DNA of 64,000 nucleotides from an uncultured Opitutia bacterium (lineage in GTDB: Bacteria; Verrucomicrobiota; Verrucomicrobiia; Opitutales; Opitutaceae), in the NCBI GenBank assembly GCA_903827245.1, contig CAIKHO010000074.1, positions 186,001-250,000 of the forward strand, in the 5' to 3' direction. The stretch's first letter is position 1; each line of letters begins with the position of its first letter. Below are positions 23,915 to 60,870 of the stretch, piece by piece. A program made the translations under genes and the position numbers. A model generated the notes under the pieces. That model was given only the letters and a program-made list of their open reading frames with translations. It did not search any database and was not told where the DNA came from.

Positions 23915-24008
23915 GGTGGCCGCCGACCTCCGGGCGGCGGATTTTTCCACAGCATTTTATTCCAACTCCTCCCCACAAACCGCCGCCGCCCGGACGTCGG
24001 CGGCCGCC
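23915..24008. repeat. REPIN-like palindrome, family C
   Basis: Two 26-nt inverted arms (GGTGGCCGCCGACCTCCGGG... and complement) differ at two positions and are 42 bp apart. Each arm contains its own hairpin GCCGCC...GGCGGC and begins GTGG. It lies between the substrate-binding-protein start and the ydbL-like stop, ending 6 bp before the latter. Confidence 0.82.
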
Positions 24009-32508: not shown

Positions 32509-32964
32509 ATGCCTCGCCCCAAGTCGCTGCTGCTCGCCGTCGTGCTGGCCCTCGGCCCGGGCGCGCACGCCGAGACCGCGCCATTGAGCCGCTATGCGAT
32601 GGTGAACGTGGAGCCCGCGAAGACCTCGATCTACATCGGCAGCATCACGCTCACGACCACTCCCTTCATCCGCGAGGGCACCGCCTACTCCGCGAGCTAC
32701 TCCGCACGGGTTTTCCCGTATTTCTTCTACAACGAGAAGGGGAAACTCTGGATCGACACCTCGGACGACGACGTCCGCCGGCTCGAGCGCGGCGAGACCG
32801 TGAACTTCACCGGTCACGCGGTCAGCGATGACGGCGCCGAGCGCCGGATCGAGGGCCGGGCCGTTCCAGCCGATGCCGGCGGCGGCAAGATCAAGGTGCG
32901 GATCTTCGTCTCCAAGCGGATCGACCTGGTCTTCAACACCACCTACGCGTTCCCGAAGAAGTAG
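32509..32964 (+). CDS. Hypothetical secreted protein, 151 aa
   Basis: Not recognised. A signal peptide (SLLLAVVLALGPGAHAE, residues ~5-21) precedes a small beta-rich domain with VNVEPAKTSIYIGSITLTTT, YSARVFPYFFYNEKGKLWID and VRIFVSKRIDLVFNTTYAF. No cysteines or catalytic motifs are seen. The TAG stop codon (32962-32964) is the TAG of the GTAG that opens the family B element. It is divergent from argH. Confidence 0.72.
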   Translation: MPRPKSLLLAVVLALGPGAHAETAPLSRYAMVNVEPAKTSIYIGSITLTTTPFIREGTAYSASYSARVFPYFFYNEKGKLWIDTSDDDVRRLERGETVNFTGHAVSDDGAERRIEGRAVPADAGGGKIKVRIFVSKRIDLVFNTTYAFPKK

Positions 32965-33029
32965 GGGCGTTGCTCGCCGACGCCCGGATTGGCCCGCGGC
33001 CGGAGGGCGTCGTCAAGCAACGCCCCTAC
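32961..33029. repeat. REPIN-like palindrome, family B
   Basis: GTAGGGGCGTTGCTCGCCGA CGCCCGG is answered by CCGGAGGGCGTCGTCAAGCA ACGCCCCTAC. Each arm starts GTAG and can fold on itself (GGCGT...ACGCC). The first arm overlaps the stop codon of the preceding gene, and the element ends 11 bp from the convergent OsmC stop. Confidence 0.85.
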
Positions 33030-33039
33030 GGTCGGGGAG

Positions 33040-33453
33040 TCATTCTCCCGCCCAGTGCAGCACGACTGGCTTCTCGATCGACGAATCGAGGCTGAGATGC
33101 ACAGGGCAGGTCTCGGCGGCGTTTTGCAGCAGCTTGGCGAGCGCCTCCGTCCGCGGGACTGGCAGCCAGAAATGGGTCGCGAGCCGGCCCAGCCGCCGTG
33201 GTCCGTAGGCCGACATCTCCTTGGTCACCTCGAATTTCATGCCGCGCAGCTCGACGCCCTGCTTGCGCGCCGCGATCGCCATGATCGTGGCCATGCACGT
33301 GGCGAGCGCGGTGGTCGCGAGATCCGTGGGTGAAAACGCCTCGCCCCGGCCCTGATTGTCCTTGGGCGCATCGGTGACGAGCACATTGCCCGAGGGCACA
33401 TGCGTCGCGGTGCAGTGCAGGTCGCCCTGGTATTCGCCGGTGATTTTGACCAT
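33040..33453 (-). CDS. OsmC family peroxiredoxin-like protein
   Basis: A 137-residue OsmC/Ohr-family protein, expected to reduce organic hydroperoxides with a reactive cysteine pair. The two conserved cysteines lie in TALATCMATIMA (on the central helix) and AAETCPVHLSLDSS. The N-terminal FSPTDLATTALATC matches the family. The start at 33453 (MVKITGEYQGD) fits usual length. A longer open frame overlaps the repeat-rich region upstream and is rejected. Confidence 0.9.
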   Translation of the reverse strand: MVKITGEYQGDLHCTATHVPSGNVLVTDAPKDNQGRGEAFSPTDLATTALATCMATIMAIAARKQGVELRGMKFEVTKEMSAYGPRRLGRLATHFWLPVPRTEALAKLLQNAAETCPVHLSLDSSIEKPVVLHWAGE

Positions 33454-33498
33454 GGAGCCAAAATCCGTGGAATGGACCCGTTGGCAACCATGCAATTG

Positions 33499-33828
33499 AA
33501 CCGCGAAGGAACGCGAAACGACGCGAAGGAAAACCCAGGCCAAGTGCAGTCGTTTTTAACCTAAATCCAGCAGTCGGATTTGAACCGCGGAGATACCAAG
33601 GACACAGAGCAGATAGGTGCTGAAGCAAGTCGGGCCGACGGGACTTTCGACTGTGGGGTGAAGTGCGGTTTTGCCCCGGTTGCCAGCTTGGTCTCTGTGC
33701 CCTTTGTGCCTTTGTGGCTCAACTGCGTTTTTTTGGTTTAATCACTATCAAACTATGACGGCCTTTGCTCCGGCCACCGTTCCCCCTTACCCTTCCGAAT
33801 TCGCGCTCATTCGCGTCCCTGCGCGGTT
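33499..33828. repeat. Nested pair of class II palindromes
   Basis: Outer arms AACCGCGAAGGAACGCGAAA (33499-33530) and the inverted copy ending TCGCGTCCCTGCGCGGTT (33793-33828) enclose a second palindrome at 33580-33722. Its arms are TTGAACCGCGGAGATACCAA... and ...GTGCCTTTGTGGCTCAA. The 395-bp gap is filled by these elements and no gene is seen in it. Confidence 0.68.
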
Positions 33829-33848
33829 TTCCTCTGCGTTGTTCCGGC

Positions 33849-35522
33849 TCAGGGAATCACCGGCGTGACGCGGAACCAGTCGAAATCGGCGTAGCCGGTT
33901 TTTTCCGCAGAAGGCGCGGCGCTCGCGAAGACGCCGACCTTGGCGCCGACCCAGCGGTCGCCGGAGGCCTTGAACGGGTCGCCGATGGGAACGAACGCCC
34001 GGTTGTCGAAGCTGTACGCGAACCGGCAGGTCGCATCCGGCCCGACGGTCACGCGCAGGTAAACCGGTGCCTCCTTCGCGTCCACCGCCGCCACTTCCCG
34101 CTCCTCCGCGCCCGGGCGGTTGGCGCCGGCGTTGACGACATGGAACAGCCGCAGACCCGTGGCGCTGCGCCGCAGTCCGACAAAGGCATAGTCGTAGCCG
34201 AAAACAACTAGCCCGGCGCGCTCGCCCTCGCCCGCCGGCGCGAACTGGAGCACGGTCGTGACGATGAACTCGGGCGCGGGAAACTTTTGCAGGAGAAAAT
34301 TCGGCGCGTCGTAGAGGCTGTTCGGCGCGGGCTTGCCGTCGTTGCGCGTCCGAGGTGCCGGCACGCTGGCCAGCCGCAGGAATCCGTGGCGCGCCGCGAG
34401 CGAGGCCCACGCCGCCTGCGGATTGGCGTTCCACTGCCATTGGAGGCCGAGGGTGCCGCCGTCGAACTCGTCAGAGGTCTGCGGCACGGCGACCGGCCAG
34501 CTGCGGCCGACATTCGGTTTCCGGTACGTCAGCACCGGCTGGCCCTTGCCCGTGCCGGCCGGATCTTCGCCGATCACCGGCCAGTCGTCATGCCAAGTCA
34601 TCGGCTCGAGATGCACGACCCGGCCGTAGGCGCCGAGATCCTGGAAGTGGAGGAACCAGTCCTCGCCGTTCGGTGTGTCCACCCACGCGCCCTGATGCGG
34701 GCCGTTGACCGGCGTTTTGCCTTGGTCGAGCACGATGCGGTGCTCGTATGGGCCGTGGATGTTCTTCGCGCGAAACACGGCCTGATAGCCGCCGGTCACG
34801 CCGCCCGAAGGGGCGAAGACGTAGTAGTAGCCGTGACGCTTGTAGAGCTTCGGGCCCTCCAGCGTTGTCCAGTCGGGGATCTTGTTACCGTCGATGATAA
34901 CCTCGCCGGGGTCGAGCACCTTGGTGCCGTCCGGGCTGAGCTGGTGCAGCGTGAGCAGATTCGCGATGCCCGCGCGGCTCTTGGCCCAGCCGTGGATGAG
35001 GTAGAGCCGGCCGTCATCGTCCCAGAACGGACACGGGTCGATCAGGCCCTTGCCGGCCTTGATCAGTACCGGCGGGGTCCAGGCACCGGCGGGATCCGTG
35101 GCGGTCGTGAGATAAATGCCGAAGTCGGGATCGGGATAAGTGATCCAGAATTTCCCGCCGTGAAAGCGTATCGCCGGCGCCCACACGCCCTCCCCGTGGC
35201 GGGGCAGCGCGAAGTGCTCCGCCGGCGGCTGCGCGGCGAAGACGTGGTTGATGATCGTCCAGTTGACGAGGTCCTTGGAGTGGAGGATCGGCAGACCCGG
35301 GGTCGCAATGAAGCTCGACGACGTGAGGTAAAAATCGTCGCCCACCCGTACTGCGTCCGGATCGGAGTAGTCGGCGAACAGCACGGGGTTTTTATAGGTG
35401 CCATCGCCGCGATCGGGCACCCAGGGCGCGCCGGCAGCGGGGTCGGCACCGCGCGCGCCGGCGGCAAGGCCCAGCAGGATTCCAGCAGACAGAGAAAGGC
35501 AGAGGAGTTTTGGGATCAGCAT
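33849..35522 (-). CDS. Secreted glycoside hydrolase family 43 with C-terminal sandwich domain
   Basis: A 557-residue exported GH43 enzyme, probably a beta-xylosidase or alpha-L-arabinofuranosidase acting on hemicellulose. Signal peptide: LLCLSLSAGILLGLAAGARG. The five-bladed propeller carries the expected acids: Asp in FADYSDPDAVRVGDDFYL, Asp in GLIDPCPFWDDDGRLYLIHG and Glu in TLEGPKLYKRHGYYY. The C-terminal ~200 residues (from about DEFDGGTLGLQWQWN) form the concanavalin-like beta-sandwich common to GH43 beta-xylosidases. Start chosen at 35522. A second GH43 gene lies 3 kb away on the same strand. Confidence 0.92.
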   Translation of the reverse strand: MLIPKLLCLSLSAGILLGLAAGARGADPAAGAPWVPDRGDGTYKNPVLFADYSDPDAVRVGDDFYLTSSSFIATPGLPILHSKDLVNWTIINHVFAAQPPAEHFALPRHGEGVWAPAIRFHGGKFWITYPDPDFGIYLTTATDPAGAWTPPVLIKAGKGLIDPCPFWDDDGRLYLIHGWAKSRAGIANLLTLHQLSPDGTKVLDPGEVIIDGNKIPDWTTLEGPKLYKRHGYYYVFAPSGGVTGGYQAVFRAKNIHGPYEHRIVLDQGKTPVNGPHQGAWVDTPNGEDWFLHFQDLGAYGRVVHLEPMTWHDDWPVIGEDPAGTGKGQPVLTYRKPNVGRSWPVAVPQTSDEFDGGTLGLQWQWNANPQAAWASLAARHGFLRLASVPAPRTRNDGKPAPNSLYDAPNFLLQKFPAPEFIVTTVLQFAPAGEGERAGLVVFGYDYAFVGLRRSATGLRLFHVVNAGANRPGAEEREVAAVDAKEAPVYLRVTVGPDATCRFAYSFDNRAFVPIGDPFKASGDRWVGAKVGVFASAAPSAEKTGYADFDWFRVTPVIP

Positions 35523-35764
35523 GGGGAAGGAAAATGAGGCGCACGATTCGAGCGGCCCGACCGGCCAGTTTGCTCCTGCCCGATCCCTGCGGCAACTGGT
35601 CTCACATGTTGACCCCAACCGCCTCCGCGTCGAGCGCGCGAAGTCCTGCTGTCTGCCGGCAAACTCAAGGTTGAGGCCACCGGCCTCGAGGACGGGTTCT
35701 TAAACGCCCAAGGCCTTCCTTTGCTCTTCGCTTCGGCCGGAGCAGGGTCTCCTTTTGTCCGAAA

Positions 35765-35853
35765 GGTGGAGCGTGTTGTCCCCAACACGCTGATCGCGCC
35801 GGACCGCGTTTAATCTTAGGCGGCACGAAACAACGCGTTGAGGTCTATCCACC
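35765..35853. repeat. REPIN-like palindrome, family F
   Basis: GGTGGAGCGTGTTGTCCCCA ACACGC faces AACGCGTTGAGGTCTATCCACC. Its end merges into a degenerate family C-like palindrome (35849-35887: CCACCTGCGGCCTCCGG...GGCGGCCACC). Together they occupy most of the right half of the 369-bp gap before the BON gene; the left half contains nothing I recognise. Confidence 0.65.
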
Positions 35854-35891
35854 TGCGGCCTCCGGCATAGAGGCTGGCGGCCACCTTGGGT

Positions 35892-36641
35892 TCAGTCCTT
35901 GACCGTCATGTTGTTGTCGACCGACTTCACCCCGCGGATGTCCGCGGCGAGCTTCGACACCAGGCTTTTCTCGGCCTCCGAGGCAGCCTCGCCCGTGATG
36001 GTCACGACCCCGTCGTTCGTGACGACCTTGGTCTTGAGCGCGCTGGTCGAGCGATGCCGGAGCAGCTCGTATTTGACCTGCGAGGTGATGGACGCGTCAT
36101 CGATCGCGTCGGCCATCGTGCCCCCGCCGGCGGGCGGCGCCTGCACCACGAGCTCGTTGCGGACCGATTTGACGTGGTCGATGTCCTTCACGTAGGCCTC
36201 GGTGAGGTCCTTCTGCGCGGCGTTCTCCGCCGTGCCAGTGAGCGTGACCACGCCGTCCTTCACGTCGACCTTGGTCGTTGCAAAGCTGACATGGGCCTTC
36301 ACGAGCAGCCGGCTTCGGATCTTGAGCGCGATCCAGGCGTCGGAGTGCTCGGGCACGGTGGACTTGATGACGATCTGGTTGTCGACGCGGACGACACCGG
36401 GGAGATTTTCGACGGTGTCCTCGGCGAGGTCGCGGTCGTCCTCGTCCATCACGGTGCCGGTGAGCGTGACGACTCCGTCGCTGGACTTGATCTTGACGTG
36501 GTCCTCGAGGACGGTGCGGTAGTTGTAGGAGGCCTTGGCGGCGTCCTCGATCTTGCGGTCGGTGGCGGACGCGGCGAACAAGGCGGCAGGCAGGAGGATG
36601 CCGAGCAGCAATGCAATGCGGAGTGATGTTTTCATGGGCAT
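35892..36641 (-). CDS. BON-domain protein, three BON domains
   Basis: A 249-residue exported protein with a signal peptide (LRIALLLGILLPAALFAAS) and three BON domains. Each ends in the family pattern DGVVTLTG...V..VxNxI/MxV: VKIKSSDGVVTLTGTV, VDVKDGVVTLTGTAENA and VVTNDGVVTITGEAASEAE. BON domains, as in OsmY, are thought to bind membranes or phospholipid and help against osmotic or envelope stress. It is divergent from the cardiolipin synthase gene, with about 195 bp between. Confidence 0.9.
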   Translation of the reverse strand: MPMKTSLRIALLLGILLPAALFAASATDRKIEDAAKASYNYRTVLEDHVKIKSSDGVVTLTGTVMDEDDRDLAEDTVENLPGVVRVDNQIVIKSTVPEHSDAWIALKIRSRLLVKAHVSFATTKVDVKDGVVTLTGTAENAAQKDLTEAYVKDIDHVKSVRNELVVQAPPAGGGTMADAIDDASITSQVKYELLRHRSTSALKTKVVTNDGVVTITGEAASEAEKSLVSKLAADIRGVKSVDNNMTVKD

Positions 36642-36836
36642 GATCGGGTTGAAACCGCGCCCGAGGAATTCGGGCGCGTGAATTGCGGACCGCGACAGAC
36701 CACGAACGGCCCGGATCGTTCCCGGCCCGCGCCATTGCCGCGCCGCGTGGCCCGGGCGGCGAAATGTGCCGCGCTTTTTCCCGGGCGGAGATTGCGGGTC
36801 GCGATTGCAAGTCAGCGCGGCCGGTCCACGCTGGCC

Positions 36837-38270
36837 ATGGGCATGAAGCTATTCCTCGTCCTGTGTTATTTCGCGAGCTGGGCGTTCATCCCGCATCTCC
36901 TGCTGCTCAAGAAGCGCCCGACCGCGACGCTGGCATGGCTGTGGGCGATCCTCTTCATCCCGCTCCTCGGCGCGCTGGCGTATTTCGCGATCGGGACCGA
37001 CCGCCTCAAGCGCCGGCGGCTCAAGCGGCGCCGGCTTTTTTCGGCGCGCGCCTCCCGCTCGGGCGGGCCTGCCAGCACCACCGATGCGGCCAGCAGTGGC
37101 CTGCTCGCCGGGCTGCCGCGGCGCGACCGCCAGTTTCTGCAGCTCCTCTCCCGCATCAACCAGCTGCCCATCAGTTCCGCCACCGACCTGCACATCCTGC
37201 GCGACTCGGCGCAGTATTATCCCGCCCTCGCCGCCCGGATCGGCGAGGCGCGGCACCATATCCACCTCGAGCTCTATATCTGGCAGGGCGATGACACCGG
37301 CCGGCGCTTCCTCGAACTGCTCACCGCAGCCGCGCGGCGCGGGGTCGTGGTCCGGCTGCTGCTCGATGGCGTCGGCTCGCATGGTCTCGCCGCGGAACTT
37401 CTCGCGGACCTGACGGCGGCGGGCGGACAGTTCTCGTGGTTCCAGAGCCTCGATCCCAAGCGCAACCGTTTCTTCCTGAACCTGCGCAACCACCGGAAGC
37501 TCCAGATCATCGACGGGACCATCGCGTTCGTCGGCGGCATGAACATCGGGCGGGAATACGAAGGGCTCGATCCGGCGTTCGGGCACTGGCGCGACGTGCA
37601 GCTGGAGGCGACCGGATCCGTCGCCGCCGAGCTGCAGGAGGTGTTCGCGGACGACTGGTTCTTTGCCACCGGGGAAAAAATTTCCGCTCCCTCCTATTAT
37701 CCCCCGCCTTCCGGCCAGGCCCGGCACCCGGTGCATATCGTACTGGGCGGACCGGACCGCCGGAACGAGCCGATCAGCAAGTCCATCGTCAGCCTGCTCG
37801 CCGAAGCCAGCGAGCGGGCCTGGATCGCCACCGGCTATTTCGTGCCCGACGACGTGCTGCTCGCGGCGCTGGAGCTCGCCGCCAGCCGCGGCGTCGATGT
37901 CCGCCTGCTGATCTCCGAGAAGAACGACCATTCCTTGCTCGTGAAGGTCGGCCGCTCGTACTACGGGGAACTGCTGGCGGCGGGCGTGCGCATTTTCGAG
38001 TACTCGGCGGGCATCAACCACGCCAAGGTCGCGGTGGCCGACAGTCAGTGGGGCATGGTCGGTTCCGCGAACCTCGACTACCGCTCGATGCGACTGAACT
38101 TCGAGCTCAACCTGCTCTTCCATTCTCCCGCGCAAAACGCGGTCCTCGCCAGCCTGCTCGAGCACGACTTCGCCCTCTGCAAGGAAATCGACCCCATGGT
38201 CTTCAGCCGCCGTCCGTTCCGGCAGAAGTTCCTCGAGGCCGCCCTGCGCCCGCTCTCGCCACTGCTGTGA
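36837..38270 (+). CDS. cls: Cardiolipin synthase (phospholipase D family)
   Basis: Membrane enzyme that makes cardiolipin from two phospholipid molecules. The 477-residue protein starts with two membrane segments (LFLVLCYFASWAFIPHLLLL and AWLWAILFIPLLGALAYFAI), then two PLD/HKD motifs: NHRKLQIIDGTIAFVGG and NHAKVAVADSQWGMVGSAN. ATG 36837 is chosen; ATG 36843 is equally possible. A longer frame upstream has no membrane segment and is rejected. Divergent from the BON protein, which may also act on membranes. Confidence 0.94.
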   Translation: MGMKLFLVLCYFASWAFIPHLLLLKKRPTATLAWLWAILFIPLLGALAYFAIGTDRLKRRRLKRRRLFSARASRSGGPASTTDAASSGLLAGLPRRDRQFLQLLSRINQLPISSATDLHILRDSAQYYPALAARIGEARHHIHLELYIWQGDDTGRRFLELLTAAARRGVVVRLLLDGVGSHGLAAELLADLTAAGGQFSWFQSLDPKRNRFFLNLRNHRKLQIIDGTIAFVGGMNIGREYEGLDPAFGHWRDVQLEATGSVAAELQEVFADDWFFATGEKISAPSYYPPPSGQARHPVHIVLGGPDRRNEPISKSIVSLLAEASERAWIATGYFVPDDVLLAALELAASRGVDVRLLISEKNDHSLLVKVGRSYYGELLAAGVRIFEYSAGINHAKVAVADSQWGMVGSANLDYRSMRLNFELNLLFHSPAQNAVLASLLEHDFALCKEIDPMVFSRRPFRQKFLEAALRPLSPLL

Positions 38271-38305
38271 TGGATTAGTCCGTGCGCGACCGGATTGCAC
38301 ATTCG

Positions 38306-38328
38306 CAGGGGCGTTGCTTGACGACGCT
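38306..38328. repeat. Single REP arm, family B
   Basis: CAGGGGCGTTGCTTGACGAC GC matches the family B arm; no paired arm lies beside it. It follows the cardiolipin synthase stop by 35 bp. Confidence 0.6.
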
Positions 38329-38368
38329 CGTACCTGTCGACCCGCCCTTAAACCCCAGCCGGATTTCA

Positions 38369-38437
38369 GCCACAGATTACACCGATGGGCGCAGATGGCC
38401 GCATGGGTTATCTGTGCACGTCGGTGCAATCAGTGGC
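38369..38437. repeat. Palindromic element (class II, single copy here)
   Basis: GCCACAGATTACACCGATGG GCGCAGAT faces ATCTGTGCACGTCGGTGCAA TCAGTGGC. Arms are 28 nt with a few mismatches and 13 bp between. Confidence 0.7.
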
Positions 38438-38595
38438 CAAAGATCTGCCGGGTCATTTTTGGAAATTCAGCGATCCCGCTCCGTCATGCCGGAAAGCAGC
38501 CAGCCTCGAATCGTTCTCGGATCGTCTCCTGTGCAACGGTTCGGAATCTGAGATTTTACAGGAGGCGATCCAAGAGGGATCCGAGGATTAACCTC

Positions 38596-38662
38596 GTAGG
38601 GCGTTGCTCGACGACGCCCTCCGGGGTTCCCCAAGCCGGGCGTCGTCAAGCAACGCCCCTAC
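38596..38662. repeat. REPIN-like palindrome, family B
   Basis: GTAGGGCGTTGCTCGACGAC GCCC faces CGGGCGTCGTCAAGCAACGC CCCTAC. The right arm, read on the minus strand, starts GTAG, and its TAG is the stop codon of the GH43 gene that ends at 38659. Confidence 0.85.
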
Positions 38663-40266
38663 TGTCCAGCCGGGCCGGCGTATATGTAGTGAAACCAGTC
38701 CACATCCACGTAGCCCGCGTCGGCCTTGTCGTTAAAGCTGTAGATGCCGATCCGGTCGCCGCGGTAGTTGCCCCACGTGAGCTGGTAGGGTTCGCCGAAG
38801 GGGGTGAAGTTCTTTCCGTCCGTGCTGTAGGAATAATGGCTCAGGCCATCGAGGCCCCATTCCGACCGCAGCCAGATCCGGCCCGACGTGATCACGGGGC
38901 CGGGCGCAGCCTGGTCGTTGCGCGTGAATTCCAGCGCTCGGACCGCCCCCTGCTGCCGGACGCCGAGCGTGCTGTGGTCCTTCGCGAAATGACACAACCC
39001 CGCCACCTGCCCGTCCGCCATGCCGACGAGATCAAGCAGCACAGTCACGACATTGTCCTTCGTCCTCATCGTTCGCTGCGTGAGGGTGTTGCCCGCGGCC
39101 ATCACCTCGCCCGGGCGCAGCGGTTGAAACGCGTGCAGCCGGAGGAATCCCGGACGCTCGCCGAGCGACCACCGGTCCGCGCGCGGCTGGTAATTCCATT
39201 CCCACTGCGGCGGCAGGTTCGGGGCCGCAAACTCGTCGCTCGCCTGCGGCGTGATCACGGGCAACCCGGTCGCCGGCATTTTTCCCGACCACACCATGCG
39301 GCCCATGCCGTCGTCGCCCACCTCGCCGACGATCGGCCAGCCGTCGAGCCACGTCACTGGCAGCAGGCTCGCCGCCCGGCCCTCCCAGGCACCGCGGCCA
39401 TGGTGCGTGAAGAAATACCATTTGCCGTCCGGTCCCTCGACAAAACCGCCCTGGTTCGGCTCCATCGCCTCGCGGTCGGCGTGCTTCAACTGCTTTTTTT
39501 CCGCGTACGGACCCGCGATGCTCTTCGCGCGCTCCATCATGATGACCCGTCCCTCCGGCTGCACCTCGCTGAAGAAGTGATAGTAGGAATCGTTAATGTG
39601 ATAGAGCTTGTTGGCCTCGCTGCCCTTCGACTGGTAGATGACACGGTCGGACTCACGCACCAGGTCGCGGCCGTCGGCGGTCAGCTTCCAGAGGTGGATC
39701 TTGTAGCCGTCGCGAAAATTCGAACCAACCAGGTAGCCCTGCCCATCGTCATCCCAGAACGGGCAGCAGTCATCCCAGCCCGCTTCCTTCAGCACCGGGT
39801 GCAGCGGCGCCCACGGCCCGGCGACGTCCTTCGCGGTGGTCATGAAGTAGCCTTCGTCCGGCGTGCCAAAATAAATCCAGAACTTCCCGTCATGGTAACG
39901 GATCGCCCCGGCCCACACGCCCTTGCCGTAGCGGTTCATCCGGTCCCAGTTCAGCTCCGGCCCGATCTGCGTGAGATCCGGGACGGCATGGCCGGCGATG
40001 GTCCAGTCCACTAGGTCTCGCGAGTGCAGGATCACGATGCCCGGCGAGAACTGGAACGTGGACGAGATCGCGTAGTAGTCCGATCCGACGCGGATGCAGT
40101 CGAGGTCGCTGTAGTCGCCGGGCAACACCGGATTCAAGTAGGTCCCGTCGCCCTGCGCGCCCCACCGCGGCCAGTCGCCCCACGTCCGCGGGGCCGCGTC
40201 CGCCGCCGCCAGCGTCACGGCAGTGAACGAAAGGAGAAGGGCGAAGAGGCGGGGCAGAAAACGCAT
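38659..40266 (-). CDS. Secreted glycoside hydrolase family 43, second copy type
   Basis: A 535-residue exported GH43 enzyme. Signal peptide: FLPRLFALLLSFTAVTLAAAD. The propeller includes NPVLPGDYSDLDCIRVGSDY, AGAIRYHDGKFWIYFGTPDE, WDDCCPFWDDDGQGYLVGS and GSEANKLYHINDSYYHFFSE, giving the family's three acidic positions (Asp, Asp, Glu). A C-terminal sandwich domain follows from about residue 345. It is not a close duplicate of the GH43 at 33849; motif context differs (SDLD against SDPD), so substrate may differ. Its stop codon TAG belongs to a family B REP. Confidence 0.9.
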   Translation of the reverse strand: MRFLPRLFALLLSFTAVTLAAADAAPRTWGDWPRWGAQGDGTYLNPVLPGDYSDLDCIRVGSDYYAISSTFQFSPGIVILHSRDLVDWTIAGHAVPDLTQIGPELNWDRMNRYGKGVWAGAIRYHDGKFWIYFGTPDEGYFMTTAKDVAGPWAPLHPVLKEAGWDDCCPFWDDDGQGYLVGSNFRDGYKIHLWKLTADGRDLVRESDRVIYQSKGSEANKLYHINDSYYHFFSEVQPEGRVIMMERAKSIAGPYAEKKQLKHADREAMEPNQGGFVEGPDGKWYFFTHHGRGAWEGRAASLLPVTWLDGWPIVGEVGDDGMGRMVWSGKMPATGLPVITPQASDEFAAPNLPPQWEWNYQPRADRWSLGERPGFLRLHAFQPLRPGEVMAAGNTLTQRTMRTKDNVVTVLLDLVGMADGQVAGLCHFAKDHSTLGVRQQGAVRALEFTRNDQAAPGPVITSGRIWLRSEWGLDGLSHYSYSTDGKNFTPFGEPYQLTWGNYRGDRIGIYSFNDKADAGYVDVDWFHYIYAGPAGQ

Positions 40267-40335
40267 CGGCCAAGCGCTAGGGGGCGCACTCAACCAGGGC
40301 AAGACCGGGACGGTGGCGCAATGAACGTTTCCGGA

Positions 40336-42138
40336 TCATGAATCCGGATCGGGATCGGGATCGGGACGCGACGGTCGTTGCGTCGTGGCGCGAAACCTTC
40401 CGATCCGCGGATCTTGATCGGGCTCAGGCCGGCGGCGACCCTGACCGTGCTCAGGCCCGCCCGGGTTCACGGGTCGCAAAGGATTTTCCACAGGCGCGGC
40501 AATCGACGGTCCGCGATCGAAGCGGGAGCGGCAGGCGCAGCAGGACGAGAATTGCCGCAAGGGCGGAAAGGGGCCGCACATGAAGGTCGGTCGATCCACA
40601 GAAGGGACATACCAGCACGCCTTCCGCACTGGGTTTTTCGCCGAGGATCGCCAGGGCATCTTGCACTTCCTCGTCCGGAACCTCGACCCGCACTCCGCCC
40701 ATGGCATTGGCATATAGCCCTCGAGCCAGCCCTCGCACTGGTGCTCGCTCAGCATTTCCATCACGCGCCCGGCCGGGGCGAGAAACTCATCGCCCGGCAC
40801 CGTCGCGGCCTCCCACTGGCGCTTCGTCACCTCGAACAGGGCCTCGAGTCCGTTGGAGAGCGTCTCGTCCGGGCCGAAGACCCGGAAATTCCTCTGCTCC
40901 TGGTTCAGCTTCGCCACGTCGCGCAGGAAGCGCCCGAGCACGTGCGTGTCGCCGATGCCGCGCACCCCGGGCGCCGGCACCTCGACGGCGTAGTCGCAGA
41001 AATCCGGCATGCGGAGGTCGCGGAGCAGGATACCGCCGTTCGCGTGCGGGTTCGCACCCATGCGCCGCCAGCCCTTGGGCGCAAGCTCGGCCAGCTCCGG
41101 CTTCAGGTGGCCCTGGGAGTCGAAGAGCTCGTCCGGCCGGTAGCTCCGCAGCCAGTCCTCGAGCTGCTTGAGATGCTCGGGCGGCGCCGAAGGCGACACC
41201 GAGAGCGGGACCTGGTGCGCCCGGAACGTGCCCTCGTTGGGCAGGCCGTCGACCATCTTCGGGCCCGTCCAGCCCTTCGGTGAGTTGAGGACGATCATCG
41301 GCCAGCGCGGCCGCACGGTGATGCCGCGGACGCGGGCGTCCGCCTGGATTTTTTTGATCTGCTCGATGGCCGTGTCGAGCGTCGCGGCCATCGCCTCGTG
41401 CATCAATGCGGGCTCGTGGCCCTCGACAAAGTACGGCGTCCAGCCGTAGCCGCGGAGCAGCTGCTCGAGCTCCTCCCGCGTGATGCGCGCGAGGATCGTC
41501 GGGTTGGAGATCTTATAGCCGTTGAGGTGAAGGATCGGCAGCACGGCGCCGTCGGTGACGGGATCGAGGAACTTGTTCGAGTGCCACGCCGTGGCCAGCG
41601 GGCCGGTCTCCGCCTCGCCGTCGCCCACGACGCAGGCGACGACCAGTTCCGGATTGTCGAACACGGCGCCGAAGGAATGGCTGAGCGAATAACCCAGTTC
41701 CCCGCCCTCGTGGATCGAGCCGGGACATTCGGGCGAGGCATGGCTGGGGATGCCGCCGGGAAACGAGAACTGGAGGAAGAGCTTCCGGAGCCCGGCCTCG
41801 TCGCGGCTGATGTTAGGGTAGATCTCGCTGTAGGTGCCCTCGAGGTAGGTCCCGGCCACGACGGCCGGCCCGCCGTGCCCGGGGCCGGAAACGTAGATCA
41901 TGTCGAGGTCGTACTTCTTGATGACGCGGTTGAGGTGCGTGTAGATGAAGTTCTGTCCCGGGGTGGTGCCCCAGTGACCGAGCAGCATGTGCTTCACGTC
42001 CGCGAGCGTCAGGGGCCGCTTCAGCAGCGGGTTGTCGTAGAGGTAAATCTGGCCGACCGACAGGTAGTTCGCGGCGCGCCAGTAGGCATCCATGCGCTGG
42101 AGCAGGTCGGGCGTAAGCGTGGTGGAATTGGTTTTCAT
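40336..42138 (-). pseudogene. xfp: Phosphoketolase, 3'-truncated
   Basis: Begins as a normal D-xylulose/D-fructose-6-phosphate phosphoketolase, which makes acetyl phosphate with thiamine diphosphate: [26 protein letters not shown]-like [36 protein letters not shown] (motif ~residues 85-105) and [20 protein letters not shown]. Family proteins run ~790-800 residues. Here the match stops at [11 protein letters not shown] (residue ~475); the next bases are the tail of a DUF2007 gene in another frame. The phosphoketolase frame runs on for ~125 meaningless codons to 40336. ackA, which would use acetyl phosphate, is in the same operon. The TPP-enzyme core is incomplete, so activity is unlikely. Confidence 0.87.
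40451..40716 (-). pseudogene. DUF2007-type signal-transducing protein, C-terminal fragment
   Basis: In a different frame from the phosphoketolase, the translation [20 protein letters not shown] matches the C-terminal half of DUF2007 proteins. It is followed by a zinc-ribbon pair (CPFCGSTDL and DCRACGKSF) around a hydrophobic segment ([15 protein letters not shown]). The N-terminal half and the true start are missing. The DUF2007 reading begins exactly where phosphoketolase similarity ends, near 40711-40716, with a shared TAT codon. A GTG at 40738 could open the frame, but within phosphoketolase-derived sequence. Confidence 0.7.
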
Positions 42139-42173
42139 GGTTCGAGAATTGATCCGGGCGATCGGGTCTGCGC

Positions 42174-42668
42174 TCAGGCATTCAGCCGCCAGAGCGCAAA
42201 GTTCAAGGCGGCCGCAAAGCTCACCCAGGCCAGATACGGCAGCAGCAAAATCCCCGCCACCCGCCGCACCCGCCAGAACGCATGCAGGGTCACCGCCAGC
42301 ACGAGCCAGAGCACCACGATTTCCCCGAACGCCGGCCCCGCGAGATGCAGGCCGAAGAACAGCGGCGTCCACAGGGTGTTGAGCAGCCATTGCCCGACGA
42401 AAAGCCCTAGGGCGCGCCCCTGCGCCTTCCAGCCGCCCTCGCACCAGACCAGCCAGGCGGCCACCGCCATCATCAGGTAGAGCAGCGTCCACACCGGGCC
42501 GAAGAGCCACGCGGGCGGGTTCCACGCCGGCTTGTGCAGCGCGGCGTACCACCCGCCGGTGGAAACGAACACTGCCGTGCCCGAGGCCGCGAGGCAGAGC
42601 ACGAGCCAGCCGGCCAGCGCCGGAAAGCGGCGGACGGGTCGCGGGGCGGAGAACGGGGACGAGTGCAT
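42174..42668 (-). CDS. tspO: TspO/MBR family membrane protein
   Basis: A 164-residue five-helix membrane protein of the TspO/peripheral benzodiazepine receptor family, linked to porphyrin/haem binding and stress signalling. Family hallmarks: [28 protein letters not shown] (motif ~residues 40-67), [19 protein letters not shown] with conserved Trp/Asn, and C-terminal [19 protein letters not shown]. It lies 21 bp after the P-type ATPase gene and 35 bp before the phosphoketolase start, so is in the same operon. TspO beside ATPase and ackA points to a low-oxygen or redox-stress regulon. Confidence 0.92.
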
Positions 42669-42689
42669 GCGAAACGAGGCCGGCGGCGG

Positions 42690-44639
42690 TCAGAGATCGT
42701 GTATCACCTTCGGGGGAAAGGCCGCGCGCAGGGCGTTCAGCACGGCGAGGACGTCGATGACTTCCTGGGCGATCGCGCCGTTCACCGGGCTCAGATGCCC
42801 CGTGGCCGCGATAACCATGCCGATCATGCTCAGGGCCATGCCGCCCACCGCGCTCTGGAGCGCGATGATCCGCATGCGGCGGCTGATGTGCATGAACTCG
42901 TCCACCTTCGTGAGCGAGTTGTCCATGATGACGACCCCCGCCGCCTCGGCGGTGACGTCGCTGTTCTGCCCGATCGCCATGCCGACGGTGGCGGCCATCA
43001 TGGCCGGGGCATCGTTGAAGCCGTCGCCGACGTAGAGCGTCTTGGCCTTCGCGGTTTCCGCCCGCACCAGCACCAGTTTCTGCTCCGGGCTTTGCTCCGC
43101 ATGGATTTCGGTGATGCCCACCTGCTCCGCAAGGTAGCGAACCTCCGACTCCCGGTCGCCCGAGACGAGCATGACCCGCGCGAAGTGATGCTTCGGCCCA
43201 AGGTGGCTCACGAACGAGCGGCTGTCGGCCCGCGGCGCATCGCGAAAGCGGAGTATCCCGGCAAAGCGCTCGTCCACCACCGCCACGCACTCAAGTCCGC
43301 CGGCGACCGGCGGAAGCTGGCCGGCCCCGGCAATTTTCAGCGCGATCAGCTTATTGCGGCTGGTGACCAGCAGGCGATGTCCGGAAACGGTTCCACGCAA
43401 ACCCTCGCCCGGTTGTTCGCCCACGTTGGTGGCCTCGGGCAGCGCCATCCCTTCCGCCTGCGCCGCGGCGAGGATGGCGCGGGCCAGCGGATGCTTCGAG
43501 TAACGTTCCAGGCTCGCCACCAGCGTCAGCACTTCCGCGGAGGTGAAGCCTGGAGCGGTGAGTTGCTCGGTCAGCTTCGGCTCGCCGTACGTGAGCGTCC
43601 CGGTCTTGTCGAAGATCGCGGTGCGGCATTCGGCGATCTGTTCGAGCACAACGGGGCTCTTGACGATGATCGCGCGCCGCGCGCACAGGGAAATGGAGCC
43701 GATGATGGCGATCGGGATCGCGAGGAGCAGCGGGCACGGGGTCGCGATCACGAGCACCGCGAGGAAGCGCACCGCCTCGCCGCTGACGGCCCAGGCGAGG
43801 ACTGCGACCGACAGCGCGACAGGGGTGTAGATCGCGCCGAGGCGATCCCCGAGCCGGCGCAAATTCGGCCGCTTCGCCTCGGACTCGCGCATGACCTCCA
43901 TGATCTTCGCATAGCGCGAATCGGCGGCGCGCCGGGTCGTGCGTATAGTGAGGGCCGACTCGCCGTTGATCGCGCCGGAGATCACGGCGGAGCCGGAGGT
44001 CTTGGTGATCTGGAACGGCTCACCCGTCAGGTAGGACTCGTCCATCACGCCGTGACCCTCGACCACGACGCCGTCCACCGGGCAGATATCGTGCGGGAAA
44101 AGCACGAGGAAGTCACCGACCGCCACGTCCGGCAGCGCCACGTCGACGATCTGGGTGTCGTGTTTCCGGTGGGCGACCGAGGGCAGCCTCTTGGCCAGTG
44201 CGGCCAGCACGGAGGAAGCGCTGCGCAGGGCATAGCTCTCCAGCGCCTCGCCGCCCGACAGCATCAGCACGATGATCGAGCCGGCGAGGTATTCGCCCAA
44301 AAGTACTGACGTGATGATGGAAATGCCGCCAAGCAGGTCGGAGCCAAATTCCCGCCGCAGCAACTTGCGGAACAAATCGTAGACCAGGGGCAGGCCACCG
44401 ATGACCAGCGTCACGAGCAGGGGAATCCGGCTGATTCCGGGAGCGGCGCGCCAGCCAAAGCGGAGCGCCAGGTGGCACAGGATGGCCGCGACGGACAGCG
44501 ACGCGATGACGGTGGTCTTCCGTCGCCAGAGACCGGCCAGGGAATACCATGGCTGGCCCGGCGCCTCTGGTACGACCGCAGAAGGCCTTGCGGGCGGTTT
44601 CACCAGTTCAGCCGGCGGCAGGGGATCGACCGTGTTCAT
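42690..44639 (-). CDS. Heavy-metal-type P-type ATPase with TPC motif (P1B-5-like)
   Basis: A 649-residue P1B-type cation pump. Membrane metal-site motif reads [11 protein letters not shown] (Thr300-Pro-Cys302) rather than CPC. The phosphorylation site is [10 protein letters not shown] (Asp344), the actuator loop is YLTGEPFQ, and the hinge is [11 protein letters not shown]. No N-terminal heavy-metal-associated CxxC domain is present; residues 1-40 are Pro-rich. TPC motifs are described for P1B-5 pumps (nickel/iron type), so that is my best guess at substrate. Its ATG overlaps the ackA stop by 4 bp (ATGA), indicating coupled translation. Confidence 0.9.
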
Positions 44640-45817
44640 CGCGAAAGGAGGCGGGTGACGGACCGCGCGATCATGAGTTCCTCGTCGGTGCGAATGACCC
44701 GCACCGCCACCCGGCTGGCGCCCTTCGAGATCAGCGGCGCACTCTGTGCGTTGCGCTTCCGGTCGAGGGTGAGGCCGAGAAACCCGAGGCCGTCGCAGAT
44801 TCGCTCGCGCACGACCGGCGCGTTTTCCCCGATGCCACCGGCAAACACGAGCGTGTCCAGTCCGCCGAGGGCGGCGGCGTAGGAGCCAATCCATTTTTTC
44901 GCCTGATAGCAGAATAGCGCCACTGCGTCCGCAGCGCTTCCATCGCGGGCCTCCCGCGCCAGCAGATCGCGCATGTCCGCGCTGGTGCCTGAAATCCCGA
45001 GCAGGCCGGACTCGTGGTTTACAATGCGGTCAAAGCGCGCGGCGGTCAGATTACCCGTGCGGGCGAGAAACGAGAAGAGCCCTGGATCGAGGTCGCCCGT
45101 CCGCGTGCCCATCACGAGGCCCGCGGCGGGGGTCAGGCCCATGCTGGTGTCGAAGCTCCGGCCCCGGTGCACCGCCGCGAGACTCGCGCCGTTGCCGAGA
45201 TGCGCGAGGATCACGCGGCCCTTTGCGGCGGCGGGATCGAGCCGGCGGAGCTCTTCCATCAGGTAGGCGTAGGACAGGCCGTGAAACCCGTAGCGGCGCA
45301 CCCCCTTTTTCTCAAAACGCCGCGGGATTGGCAGGAGTCGCGCCACGCGCGGCAGGTCGCGATGAAAGGCCGTGTCGAAGCAGGCGATTTGGGGCAGGCC
45401 GGGAAAGCGGGCGCGCAGGGTCGCGATCAGGCTGAGCTCGGCCGGCAGGTGCTCGGGATCGAACACGCTGAACTGGCGCAACTGCTCCAGCATCGCAGCC
45501 GTCACCTTCTGCGGCGCGGTGTAGCGCCCGCCGCCATGGACTATCCGGTGGCCGATCGCCGCGAGCCCGTCCTCGCCCGTGAGCGGAAGGATTGCCTTGA
45601 TCACGAGGGTCAGGGCTCGCGCGTGATCGGGGGCGGACACGGCCCGGTGCCCAGGTGCCCGTCGCGGCATGTCGGATGCCATGGCCAGGTCCGCCCTGCC
45701 CCGCCCGATGCGACTCACGGCCCCGAAGGCGAGGCGCAGCAAGCCCTTGTCCGCCCGGAAAACGGCAAACTTCAGGCTGGAGGAACCCGCGTTCAGGATC
45801 AGGAGGCAGCGTGGCAT
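44636..45817 (-). CDS. ackA: Acetate kinase
   Basis: Interconverts acetyl phosphate plus ADP with acetate plus ATP. The 393-residue protein shows [15 protein letters not shown] at the N-terminus, [63 protein letters not shown] (motif ~residues 205-228), and [17 protein letters not shown]. Length is standard. It is the first gene of the operon ackA-ATPase-tspO-phosphoketolase, in which phosphoketolase would supply acetyl phosphate. No pta gene is adjacent. Confidence 0.96.
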
Positions 45818-45922
45818 GCGTGGAAGAGAGGAGTATCTTGTTGTGAAAACTGATCGCGAACGACCCGCGTGTCCACCGCCAGACCGACCCCGATCCGGGC
45901 CCGGGGTGTCGCACCGATGCGC

Positions 45923-46513
45923 CTAGACGCCTTCCCGGCCGAACGCGTCCATGCGCTTAAGCCATTTTTCCCGCCCGGATTTCTTTTCCGCGTCGACGTG
46001 GCCGATCAGGCTCTCACTGATCGGGCCGATACCGCAAAACCCGAGGACGTTGCGCTCGAGATTTTTAAGGCTGTGGGCGCGGAAATACCAGCGGTAGACC
46101 AGCGCGGGCATGCCCATGGTGACAACGATGCGCGCGGTCCGACCCTTCAGTTTCCGCCGCGAGCCCGTGCCGGAGCTTCCGGGAGCGGCAAAGGCAAATC
46201 CCGGACGGAAGACCTGCTCGAAGAATCCCTTGAGCAGCGCCGGCATCGCACCAAGCCACAGCGGATAAATAATCACCAAGTGCCCGGCCCGGCCAATCAG
46301 GCGCTGCGCCTCGTGGATCGCCGGCAGCGGCTCGCCCTGCTCAAAATCCTCCTTGGTCCGGAGCAGCGGAAAATCGATCCGGGCTACGTCGATCACGCTG
46401 ACCTCGCGCCCCGCCGCCCTCGCGCCCCGCGCATAGGCCGCAGCCAGTGCGTGCCCGAAATGCGTGCGCTGTGGATCGGGATTTCCCTGGATGATGACGA
46501 TCGGTTCGAACAT
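45923..46513 (-). CDS. NAD(P)H-dependent flavodoxin-fold oxidoreductase (quinone reductase family)
   Basis: A 196-residue protein of the NAD(P)H:quinone oxidoreductase/flavodoxin-like superfamily, likely an FMN or FAD-dependent quinone reductase. It shows IVIIQGNPDPQRTHFGHAL at the flavin-phosphate loop and AGHLVIIYPLWLGAMPALLKGFFEQVFRPGFAF, the conserved core near residues 77-109. ATG 46513 is chosen by family fit. It lies 105 bp upstream of ackA on the same strand and may belong to the same stress regulon. Confidence 0.9.
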   Translation of the reverse strand: MFEPIVIIQGNPDPQRTHFGHALAAAYARGARAAGREVSVIDVARIDFPLLRTKEDFEQGEPLPAIHEAQRLIGRAGHLVIIYPLWLGAMPALLKGFFEQVFRPGFAFAAPGSSGTGSRRKLKGRTARIVVTMGMPALVYRWYFRAHSLKNLERNVLGFCGIGPISESLIGHVDAEKKSGREKWLKRMDAFGREGV

Positions 46514-46732
46514 GGCGCGGCGATGGTGAGTGATTGAGATCAACGGCCCGCGGCCGGATCGCGGATGACGGCTTCGATTCTGTACCGTATTATAGCCGAC
46601 AGGCCCCCGAGCCGCACTGCAACGGCTGCCATTTTTCACGCATAAATTGACCCGCCAATCGGCGGTGAATCAGCCCCATGCCCGTCCGGTTTTGTACTTT
46701 AGTCTACCGGCCAATTCACGCCGGCAGACCCA

Positions 46733-46758
46733 GGTGGCCGCCGACCTCCGGGCGGCGG
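46733..46758. repeat. Single REP arm, family C
   Basis: GGTGGCCGCCGACCTCCGGG CGGCGG is identical to the left arm at 23915. No paired arm follows; a family A element starts 33 bp later. Together they occupy the middle of the 420-bp gap between the flavodoxin-fold reductase and the next gene. Confidence 0.72.
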
Positions 46759-46791
46759 ATTCCGGCTGGCCGAGGTGCCACACCGCCGACG

Positions 46792-46860
46792 GTAGGAGCG
46801 GCCCTTACGCCGCGATGGTTCGCCGGACCGTCAATCATCGCGGCATAAAGCCGCTCCTAC
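46792..46860. repeat. REPIN-like palindrome, family A
   Basis: GTAGGAGCGGCCCTTACGCC GCGATG faces CATCGCGGCATAAAGCCGCT CCTAC. Both arms open with GTAG, and each is a hairpin by itself (GCGGC...GCCGC). Confidence 0.87.
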
Positions 46861-46933
46861 ATTTTCAAATGGAACCGGCCCCGGCCTCTGTCGGTAGGCG
46901 CAGCTGTCTCATGTGACCCGCAATTGAACTCGC

Positions 46934-47488
46934 TCATGCGGCAAAACAGCGTCCCGTGAGTGATGTCGGGGCGAGAAATCCCCGGGCGTATTCCGCCCGG
47001 TGCACGTTCGGAATGGTGGAAGCGGCCTCGATGGTGACCGGCCACGACCCTTCTGTCCCGCTCAATGCGACCCGGGTCGTGGTGCGTCCTGGCGGTAAGG
47101 CCAAACAGGAGGCCAGCGAAGTCTCGCCGGCTGCGTCCACCGGATCCATCCCCCCAGTCGACAACACGAGCAGGTCGGCCTCTGCCGTATCCGCGGCGGC
47201 CCGATCCTGCGATTCCGGATCGGACCAATAGGCCAGCGGCTCGGCGACGAGCTGCAGTTCCAGGTCGGGGCCGGCGGAGCGGAGCAGGTCGTTCAACCAG
47301 CGCAAGGCCATCAGCCCGGCGGCGGCATGCTCGTAGGCCACGACAACCTTCCAGACCGCGCCAGGAGACAACGGCAGCGACTGCAACCCGGCGGCCAGGG
47401 ACGCGGACGGGCGAATATCGGGGGTGTCGGTCAGTCCAGAACGCTGATTCTGCGGGCGGCCGAGTGAGGGCATGATTTCAAAATTCAT
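46934..47488 (-). CDS. Hypothetical protein, 184 aa, Rossmann-like alpha/beta pattern
   Basis: Not recognised. After a variable ~50-residue N-terminus comes VWKVVVAYEHAAAGLMALRWLNDLL, then LELQLVAEPLAYW and EADLLVLSTGG, which together suggest an alternating alpha/beta domain somewhat like nucleotide-binding or universal-stress folds. No ATP-binding GxxGxxxG motif is visible. ATG 47488 is used. Its place between the ackA operon and the DksA/HPF-like genes suggests a stress role, by position only. Confidence 0.62.
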   Translation of the reverse strand: MNFEIMPSLGRPQNQRSGLTDTPDIRPSASLAAGLQSLPLSPGAVWKVVVAYEHAAAGLMALRWLNDLLRSAGPDLELQLVAEPLAYWSDPESQDRAAADTAEADLLVLSTGGMDPVDAAGETSLASCLALPPGRTTTRVALSGTEGSWPVTIEAASTIPNVHRAEYARGFLAPTSLTGRCFAA

Positions 47489-47733
47489 CGAGGCAAGGGA
47501 TTGAAAAGGGTGATGGAACGACCCGCAGCATAGCATGCGTCCCGGCGCGGGGGAATTGGGGCCCGGGAGGTTTCTCGCTAGGGGAATTCCGTACCCCGCT
47601 TAAGCCGTTTTGGGAGGCTGATGGTCCCCCGTGCAGCCGCACGGGCTGCTTCAGGCGGTCGCGCGACAAGAAACAGCGCCCGTTGGACAATTTGTGCGAA
47701 GCGGCCCGCGCGCAATTCCGGCACCATGGGCGC

Positions 47734-48123
47734 ATGAAAACCCCGGCCAACCTCGAACCCCGCTGGACCTGGCATTTTCAAACCCTCCTCGCACTCCGGG
47801 AGAAGCTGGTCTGCGCGCGTGACGCTCACCGTTCCGACGCCGCCACCCCCGTCCAGACCGAGGGGGCCGATCCCATCGACCGCGCGAGCGACCTCGCCGA
47901 GCGCAATGTCATCATGGCCGAGCTCGGGGTCGAGGAGGCTGAGCTTGCCGCCATCGATGCGGCGCTGCAGCGCCTGCGCGATGGCACCTACGGCATCTGC
48001 GTGCTCACCGGCCAGCCCATCGCTGCGGCCCGCCTGCGCGCCCTGCCGTGGACCCCCTACGCGATCGAAGCCGCCGGTCGACGCGAGCAAGCTGCCGGCC
48101 TGGCCCATGGAGCCAGGAAATAG
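47734..48123 (+). CDS. TraR/DksA-like protein lacking the zinc cysteines
   Basis: A 129-residue protein with the coiled-coil plus C-terminal motif layout of DksA/TraR proteins, which bind RNA polymerase's secondary channel. The DPIDRASDLAERNVIMAELG segment gives the acidic coiled-coil region, and GTYGICVLTGQPIAAARLRALPW is the signature C-terminal motif. The four-cysteine zinc site is nearly gone: only the Cys in GIC remains. The start is ATG 47734. HPF lies 23 bp downstream, so the two are probably co-transcribed and may both act when growth stops. Confidence 0.82.
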   Translation: MKTPANLEPRWTWHFQTLLALREKLVCARDAHRSDAATPVQTEGADPIDRASDLAERNVIMAELGVEEAELAAIDAALQRLRDGTYGICVLTGQPIAAARLRALPWTPYAIEAAGRREQAAGLAHGARK

Positions 48124-48146
48124 AAACCCCAACGCCCTTCCCCACC

Positions 48147-48539
48147 ATGACTCCCGCGCAAATCGTCTTCCGCCATGCCGCCTCGTCCCCCGCCGTCATC
48201 AGCCGCGTCGAGGAGGAGGTGGCCAAGCTGCACCACTTCTGCGACGCCATCACGCGATGCCGGGTCGTGATCGAGGCGCCCCATCCGCACCACCGCCACG
48301 GCGGCCATTTCTCCGTCCGGATCGAGCTCCACATCCCGCGGCACGAAATCGTCGTGCATCACAATCCCTCCGTCCGCTTCGCCACCCAGGGCGCCATCAA
48401 GGGTGCCCGGACAGCCGAGGTCGACGTCCCGCACAAGGACGTTTACATCGCAATCCGCGATGCCTTCGACGCGGCCCGCCGGCGCCTGGAGGACCAGGTG
48501 AGACGGATGAGAACGCGGGTCAAGGAACGCGCGTTGTAG
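48147..48539 (+). CDS. hpf: Ribosome hibernation promoting factor / HPF-RaiA family
   Basis: A 130-residue protein with the HPF/RaiA beta-alpha-beta layout: IVFRHAASSPAVISRVEEEVAKLHHF, RCRVVIEAPHPHHRHGGHFSVRIELHIP (motif ~residues 40-67), and the C-terminal helix DVYIAIRDAFDAARRRLEDQV. Such proteins dimerise or silence idle ribosomes under stress. Histidine clusters are notable. It follows the DksA-like gene by 23 bp. Its TAG stop (48537-48539) is the TAG of the GTAG opening a family A element. The short length indicates the single-domain form. Confidence 0.85.
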   Translation: MTPAQIVFRHAASSPAVISRVEEEVAKLHHFCDAITRCRVVIEAPHPHHRHGGHFSVRIELHIPRHEIVVHHNPSVRFATQGAIKGARTAEVDVPHKDVYIAIRDAFDAARRRLEDQVRRMRTRVKERAL

Positions 48540-48601
48540 GAGCGGCTTCTTGCCGCGATGCTCGGTGAGCAGATCCAGCCATTGCGGCAAGAAGCCGCTC
48601 C
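48536..48601. repeat. REPIN-like palindrome, family A
   Basis: GTAGGAGCGGCTTCTTGCCG CGATG faces CATTGCGGCAAGAAGCCGCT CC. The first arm overlaps the hpf stop codon. Confidence 0.85.
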
Positions 48602-48714
48602 GACTGTTTCAGACGGATCCATTTCCCGCCGTCTCGGGCCTCGCCGGGCTCGTGCCGCCTGGAATGAGGTGGTCCGCGACTTCTTTGTAGCGGTTGGCCT
48701 GCGTGCGATTCATT

Positions 48715-48740
48715 CCGCCGCCCGGAGGCCGGCGGCCACC
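48715..48740. repeat. Single REP arm, family C
   Basis: CCGCCGCCCGGAGGCCGGCG GCCACC is the reverse complement of the family C arm. It sits in the 371-bp gap between hpf and the next gene; the gap's remainder (48741-48910) holds nothing I recognise. Confidence 0.68.
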
Positions 48741-48910
48741 TTTCATTCTGTCGCTTTTCATCGTGAAGCAGGACTTCAACTGCATGACTCCGGCTCGGGA
48801 CTGCGGGTCAGCGCGACGGAAATTCCGCCAAGGCAAATGCCACGAATGCGGCGCGTCGCAGGGAACCAACGGCCAAGGCGGGACACGTTACTTGAACCAC
48901 CTTGAACCCC

Positions 48911-50240: not shown

Positions 50241-50374
50241 ATCTTGGCGAAATGAAATCCAATCGGACCTGTGTCTACGCCAGCGGATAATTTGGAAAAA
50301 CGCTATCAACCCATACCCCAGTTGAGTTGCCACGATCGTCCTCGTTGCGGTTAACCGTAAGCCTGCAGTCGCCG

Positions 50375-50444
50375 GTAGCAGCCGACGTGAGGAGGCTGGT
50401 TTGGAGTGAGTCACCACACCCAGCCTCGTTACCTCGGCTGCTAC
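50375..50444. repeat. REPIN-like palindrome, family D
   Basis: GTAGCAGCCGACGTGAGGAG GCTGG faces CCAGCCTCGTTACCTCGGCT GCTAC. It is the same element as 60776-60845 in the opposite orientation, with similarity extending into ~25 bp of flank to about 50469. It lies in the 397-bp gap before the glycosylase gene; nothing else is recognised there. Confidence 0.85.
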
Positions 50445-50577
50445 ATCGATCACTGAGGTTCAATTGCATTGAACCGGCTTAAATTGGCTTTCTTCCAGGA
50501 CTACCGATCCCCGCGTACGTAAAGAGAATGCCTTTTCTTGGTGCGCCCTGTGGGCATTCCCGCTTATTTGCGGCCCG

Positions 50578-60630: not shown

Positions 60631-60775
60631 TCCTTTTATTTTTGGGTTTTAGTTAGGGCGAACCATCCCGGTGAGCCGCGGCTCGGCGGGGACACCTCGC
60701 CTACCCACAGACAGCCTGGCTGCGATATTTCATTTCCCTAAGCCGGAACGATGCAGTTAAACCGCAGCGATCAGT

Positions 60776-60845
60776 GTAGCAGCCGAGGTAACGAGGCTGG
60801 GTTTGCTTACTCACCTCAAACCAGCCTCCTCACGTCGGCTGCTAC
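60776..60845. repeat. REPIN-like palindrome, family D
   Basis: GTAGCAGCCGAGGTAACGAG GCTGG faces CCAGCCTCCTCACGTCGGCT GCTAC. With about 25 bp of matching flank on the left (from about 60751) it repeats the element at 50375-50469 in the other orientation. Confidence 0.85.
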
Positions 60846-60870
60846 AGGCGACTGCACCGTCCCGGCTAAG

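Follow-up and report, generated by a model that had tools for sequence, protein, structure and literature searches.

Three protein-coding genes in the window, i.e., the whole 64,000-nt stretch of DNA that was analyzed, take their TAG stop codon from the GTAG that opens a repeated palindromic element. We call this GTAG the head of the element. The genes, the elements and one neighboring gene are the following.

32509 to 32964, plus strand: gene of a 151-residue protein; its stop TAG at 32962-32964 lies within an element head
32961 to 33029, plus strand: head-to-head pair of GTAG REPs of family A (variant A2), whose far head is at 33029-33026 on the minus strand
33040 to 33453, minus strand: OsmC-like gene that converges on the gene of the 151-residue protein and ends 10 nt away from the far end of the first element
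38596 to 38662, minus strand: head-to-head pair of GTAG REPs of family A (variant A2), with one head at 38662-38659 on the minus strand and the other at 38596-38599 on the plus strand
38659 to 40266, minus strand: GH43 gene, start as called, frame open to 40302; stop within an element head
48147 to 48539, plus strand: gene encoding a 130-residue protein with an S30AE (Hpf-like) domain, counted from the called start; it stops within an element head
48536 to 48604, plus strand: GTAG REP pair, family B; far head GTCG on the minus strand at 48604-48601

The arrangement was read directly at each site, and the claim of the earlier note that the GTAG of an element supplies the stops of the genes for the 151-residue protein, the GH43 protein and hpf holds at all three. 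The last codon of each gene ends in G, which together with the TAG forms the GTAG head of the palindrome. The first gene ends in AAG TAG, with GTAG at 32961-32964 followed by an inverted repeat that ends in CTAC at 33026-33029, and this element occupies nearly the whole gap before the OsmC-like gene. The GH43 gene stops on the minus strand at the TAG in 38661-38659, opposite a partner head with an intact GTAG. The third gene ends in TTG TAG (GTAG at 48536-48539, stop at 48537-48539), and the GTCG of its partner head is due to mutation. All three frames are coding according to a hexamer model. A GH43 domain was recognized by Pfam in the second protein and an S30AE (Hpf-like) domain in the third; the 151-residue protein has no Pfam match at an E value of 0.001, and matches to it were found in 26 of the 57 genomes searched, its own counted. 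The elements are also oriented alike relative to the three genes, as had been noticed before, but this is uninformative as evidence because TAG works as a stop solely in that orientation.

REPs are small, non-autonomous palindromes thought to be mobilized in trans by REP-associated tyrosine transposases (RAYT, TnpAREP). The three elements belong to the GTAG-tagged REP palindromes described by Di Nocera, De Gregorio and Rocco (2013; PMC3733652), and share with that superfamily, as the available text describes it, the GTAG head, a short palindrome, head-to-head pairs and many copies near gene ends. Pairing head to head was counted at these three sites, where it occurs every time. Folded as RNA, the pairs reach -53.2, -53.8 and -50.9 kcal/mol with z-scores of -6.9, -8.7 and -8.0, the folded stretches being 38597-38662 for the second pair and 48536-48608 for the third. 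They are ruled out as intrinsic terminators: there is no T run, and the 13 terminator-like sites of 32900-48800 include none of them.

We analyzed a sample of 1.63 Mb, or 46% of the genome, composed of the larger contigs and of contigs with element hits. At least six repeat families in this sample begin with GTAG and have a palindromic consensus; the family letters used here (A, A2, B, C and F) are labels of this analysis. Requiring GTAG plus a body with at most 6 mismatches yielded 236 heads in 1,628,095 bases, compared with 2 when the bodies were reversed. The heads lie mostly between genes, only 6 of the 236 falling inside called genes. Two other procedures were abandoned, namely, a loose detection of bodies without GTAG, which gave 618 hits, many of them by chance, and a clustering that allowed GTGG and was overwhelmed by coding sequence. 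The loose run, performed on 0.84 Mb, was the source of an earlier tally of 6 stops. The base pair before the GTAG is often CT in family B (C in 56% at position -2 and T in 79% at position -1 of 39 heads), which fits the cleavage site at CT published for a TnpAREP in the portion of that work available (PMC8266576).

Other repeats were seen in passing. A repeat starting with GTGGCCGCCGACCT at positions 23915, 26148, 46732 and 48714 of the window may be a REP family headed by GTGG instead of GTAG; this 14-mer has 26 copies in 0.84 Mb, on both strands. Two 131-nt inverted-repeat arms at 50351-50481 and 60739-60869 of the window, 84% complementary, contain family F heads. Several copies of this family in the genome sample share the sequence before the GTAG and begin about 20 nt behind a stop, and family F may therefore be part of a longer repeat.

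How often heads serve as stops was determined with a gene caller based on a hexamer model that was built for this analysis and compared only with the ORF list of the window. It called 1377 genes, with 854 TGA, 268 TAG and 255 TAA stops. Thirteen of the 236 heads, about 1 in 18, are the stop of a called gene. As the window had been chosen for the effect, it is richer in stop heads (3/17), and the key counts were therefore also made without it, which leaves 10 of 219. This number compares with a mean of 2.1 heads per position 4 to 24 nt behind same-strand stops (Poisson p = 7e-5) and with an expectation of 2.3 for any one position if heads were placed uniformly in the free gap (p = 1.3e-4), both with the window excluded and both assuming independent heads, which the two heads of one pair are not. 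Stop heads outside the window are thus about five times as dense as heads at nearby positions. Restricting the count to heads that keep the stop residue of a congener gave 8 against 2.6 expected (p = 0.005), or 6 against 2.3 without the window (p = 0.029). The insertion at or just after stop codons that the earlier note proposed is therefore borne out as a bias of position, which may reflect survival rather than targeting.

Several further counts bear on this frequency. G-TAG stops end 108 of the 1377 called genes, and 13 of these sit in elements. The A2 variant is over-represented among the stops, 8 of its 35 heads being stops compared with 1 of 42 in A (p = 0.009); the comparison was post hoc, and 2 of the 8 come from the window. 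At loci of the same genome outside the sample, none of 7 elements ends a coding frame. In the congener G001, 1 of 40 distinct elements does, and as that frame looks doubtful, no orthologue test was gained. Heads also show peaks at distances of 24 nt (9 heads) and 25 nt (6 heads) behind stops, and 9 of these 15 belong to family F.

The frame in which genes meet the heads was examined in two ways. Of the genes that meet a head at their called 3' end, 13 stop in frame at its TAG and 1 reads through the head to end 13 nt later; 3 more same-strand genes hold a head far inside or near their start. When the caller was left out, coding frames that stay open as far as the head were in phase with it in 16 cases and out of phase in 12 (p = 0.008, with some frames that look spurious). 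This test is much weaker than that on called genes.

We compared the gene ends with those of the congener G002, which is poor in family A elements and in which orthologues of all 13 stop-element genes were found. A search from -30 to +150 of the stop revealed a recognizable element at none of the 13 ends in G002. The stop is nonetheless at the same residue in 8 of the 13 genes, the background being 249 of 331 reciprocal pairs without a stop element. Five of the eight have TAG in G002 (C74:69361, C21:104835, C9:19237, C88:24985 and the gene of the 151-residue protein), and three have TGA (the GH43 gene, C78:61642 and C35:50549). The stop position differs in the remaining 5 of the 13 genes: the G002 protein is 13 residues longer for C74:142055, 2 longer for C42:86774, 1 longer for C42:95754 and 2 to 3 shorter for C55:12416, and that of hpf has a different tail reaching 9 residues beyond the end of its counterpart in the alignment (5 in net length). 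Judged from these alignments, the proteins that end in an element TAG are mostly little changed.

These data mostly do not bear out the alternative offered in the earlier note, that the element replaced the original C terminus and stop. At the three sites in the window, the orthologue comparison gave a mixed answer, with the same residue and TAG for the 151-residue protein, whose gene ends in TAG in most other relatives compared as well, the same residue and TGA for GH43, and a different tail for hpf. Thus, two of the three genes stop alike without the repeat, which speaks against the note, while the frequency of stop heads above the local background speaks for it.

We consider it likely that mobile REPs land close behind genes, and that copies whose TAG falls in frame on a stop survive, changing little. 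The GTAG head belongs to the element and would arrive with it, as suggested by its being part of the element in the published biochemistry and by the CT that precedes family B. REPs accumulate in the short stretches directly behind genes, and where a copy comes to lie on a gene end with its TAG in the frame of that gene, this TAG would become or stay the stop and leave the protein little altered. Such copies would survive because so little is changed, and out-of-frame copies are rarer, presumably through loss by selection. The reverse comparison agrees with a TAG brought in by the element: of three G002 genes that stop in an element, two have TAA and one has TGA in the genome studied here, at the same position in none of the three. 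Simple supply of the TAG, however, predicts that G002 has TAG at the background rate, which is exceeded: 5 of the 13 genes have a TAG there that matches in residue, compared with 36 of the 331 background pairs (p = 0.012).

Movement of the elements would probably depend on a RAYT. Against this, the Y1 transposase domain PF01797 had no match in the genome under study (G000), a draft of 97% estimated completeness, although 28 of the 38 genomes searched, including G001 and G002, have one. REP/RAYT (TnpAREP) systems, so far as the accessible parts of PMC2817692 and PMC8266576 describe them, resemble the present elements in their GTAG-headed hairpins and in the CT that precedes family B heads; they differ in having a Y1 transposase, so that mobility is an inference in our case. 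Biochemical work on TnpAREP, in the part available, presents GTAG as part of the element and, in one tested system, as guiding the cleavage, which occurs at CT or CA (PMC8266576). Pseudomonas protegens Pf-5, by the available account, provides a precedent for REPs without a working RAYT (PMC3390384).

The excess of TAG in G002 is what would be expected if elements inserted preferentially at existing stops, especially TAG or GTAG, the host stop being kept and fused to the element; we regard this as rather unlikely. GTAG is likewise enriched in G002 (4/13 against 18/331, p = 0.006), at ends without a recognizable element, and in the sample from the genome under study six heads start exactly 1 nt behind a stop, with none directly at it. 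However, the excess of TAG is not significant relative to TAG-ending genes without an element in the same genome (5/13 against 11/63, p = 0.098). In addition, G002 has TGA in three of the eight same-residue genes and stops elsewhere in five of the 13, TAG was present in none of the three reciprocal cases, and one of the five TAG genes, C88:24985, possibly carries a decayed element in G002, since its sequence there includes GTAGGGGCGC, which is common to the element. It is similarly unlikely that existing (G)TAG stops are the insertion targets of a mobile palindrome that docks onto gene ends and leaves the protein unharmed. If true, (G)TAG targeting would account for both the in-frame bias and the TAG in 5 of 13 congener genes, and the targeting of stop codons would explain how REPs spread so cheaply this close to genes. 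The TAGs in G002 may hint that TAG stops are preferred in addition, or may be a chance result of the small sample.

Chance would suffice if elements were simply dense behind genes, a few of them fell on a stop, and the window had been picked for its three. The concentration of stop heads in the window relative to the rest of the sample agrees with such a selection, and the excess becomes modest once the count outside the window is confined to the 6 cases with the stop residue of the congener. Moreover, GTAGs outside the families with non-coding DNA behind them are more often stops (92/637) than are element heads (13/228). Yet the 10 heads in the remainder of the sample are too many for both null models, which treat even paired heads as independent, and we deem chance distinctly improbable. 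Still less credible, and in our opinion highly improbable, is that elements are kept at stops because their hairpin acts on the mRNA or on the terminating ribosome: the strong predicted hairpins start at the stop codon, and E. coli REPs at most 15 nt from a stop reportedly make ribosomes stall and reduce translation (cited in PMC12306157, as available), but no element is recognizable at the 13 G002 gene ends, the pairs lack a T run and do not figure among the terminator-like sites, and family A matches vary widely within the genus (107 in G000, 248 in G001 and 19 in G002), as those of mobile DNA with no conserved role would. For the protection of mRNA or the block to read-through that the earlier note considered, what the analysis shows is the strong predicted folding.

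Survival of in-frame copies that bring their own TAG, the reading we prefer, concerns a phenomenon already in print, of which the present case is one instance. Elements whose TAG serves as a stop are real and above chance, with the caveats given for the counts. The available text of PMC3733652 states that flanking ORFs often obtain their TAG stop from the ends of GTAG REPs, that many REPs are located no more than 20 bp from ORF 3' ends, and that Opitutus terrae, a member of the Verrucomicrobia, is rich in GTAG REPs. That text, as far as available, contains no rate and no comparison of proteins with those of relatives; the rate, the frame test and the comparison with a congener are added here, and the remark of 2013 is now quantified, for our sample, at 13 of 236 REPs. 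In the literature searched for REPs as stop codons, to the extent that it was available, no statement beyond that paper was found. The E. coli REPs of PMC12306157, as the accessible part presents them, are alike in being palindromes at ORF ends; unlike those acting on translation, the elements described here include the stop codon itself.

Two orthologues in G001 carry related elements at their ends. That of C78:61642 (L210) has a family A head 7 nt behind its stop, and that of C74:142055 (L211) has a family C-like head, borderline with 6 mismatches, whose TAG ends the gene. Elements may arrive more than once at the same gene ends.
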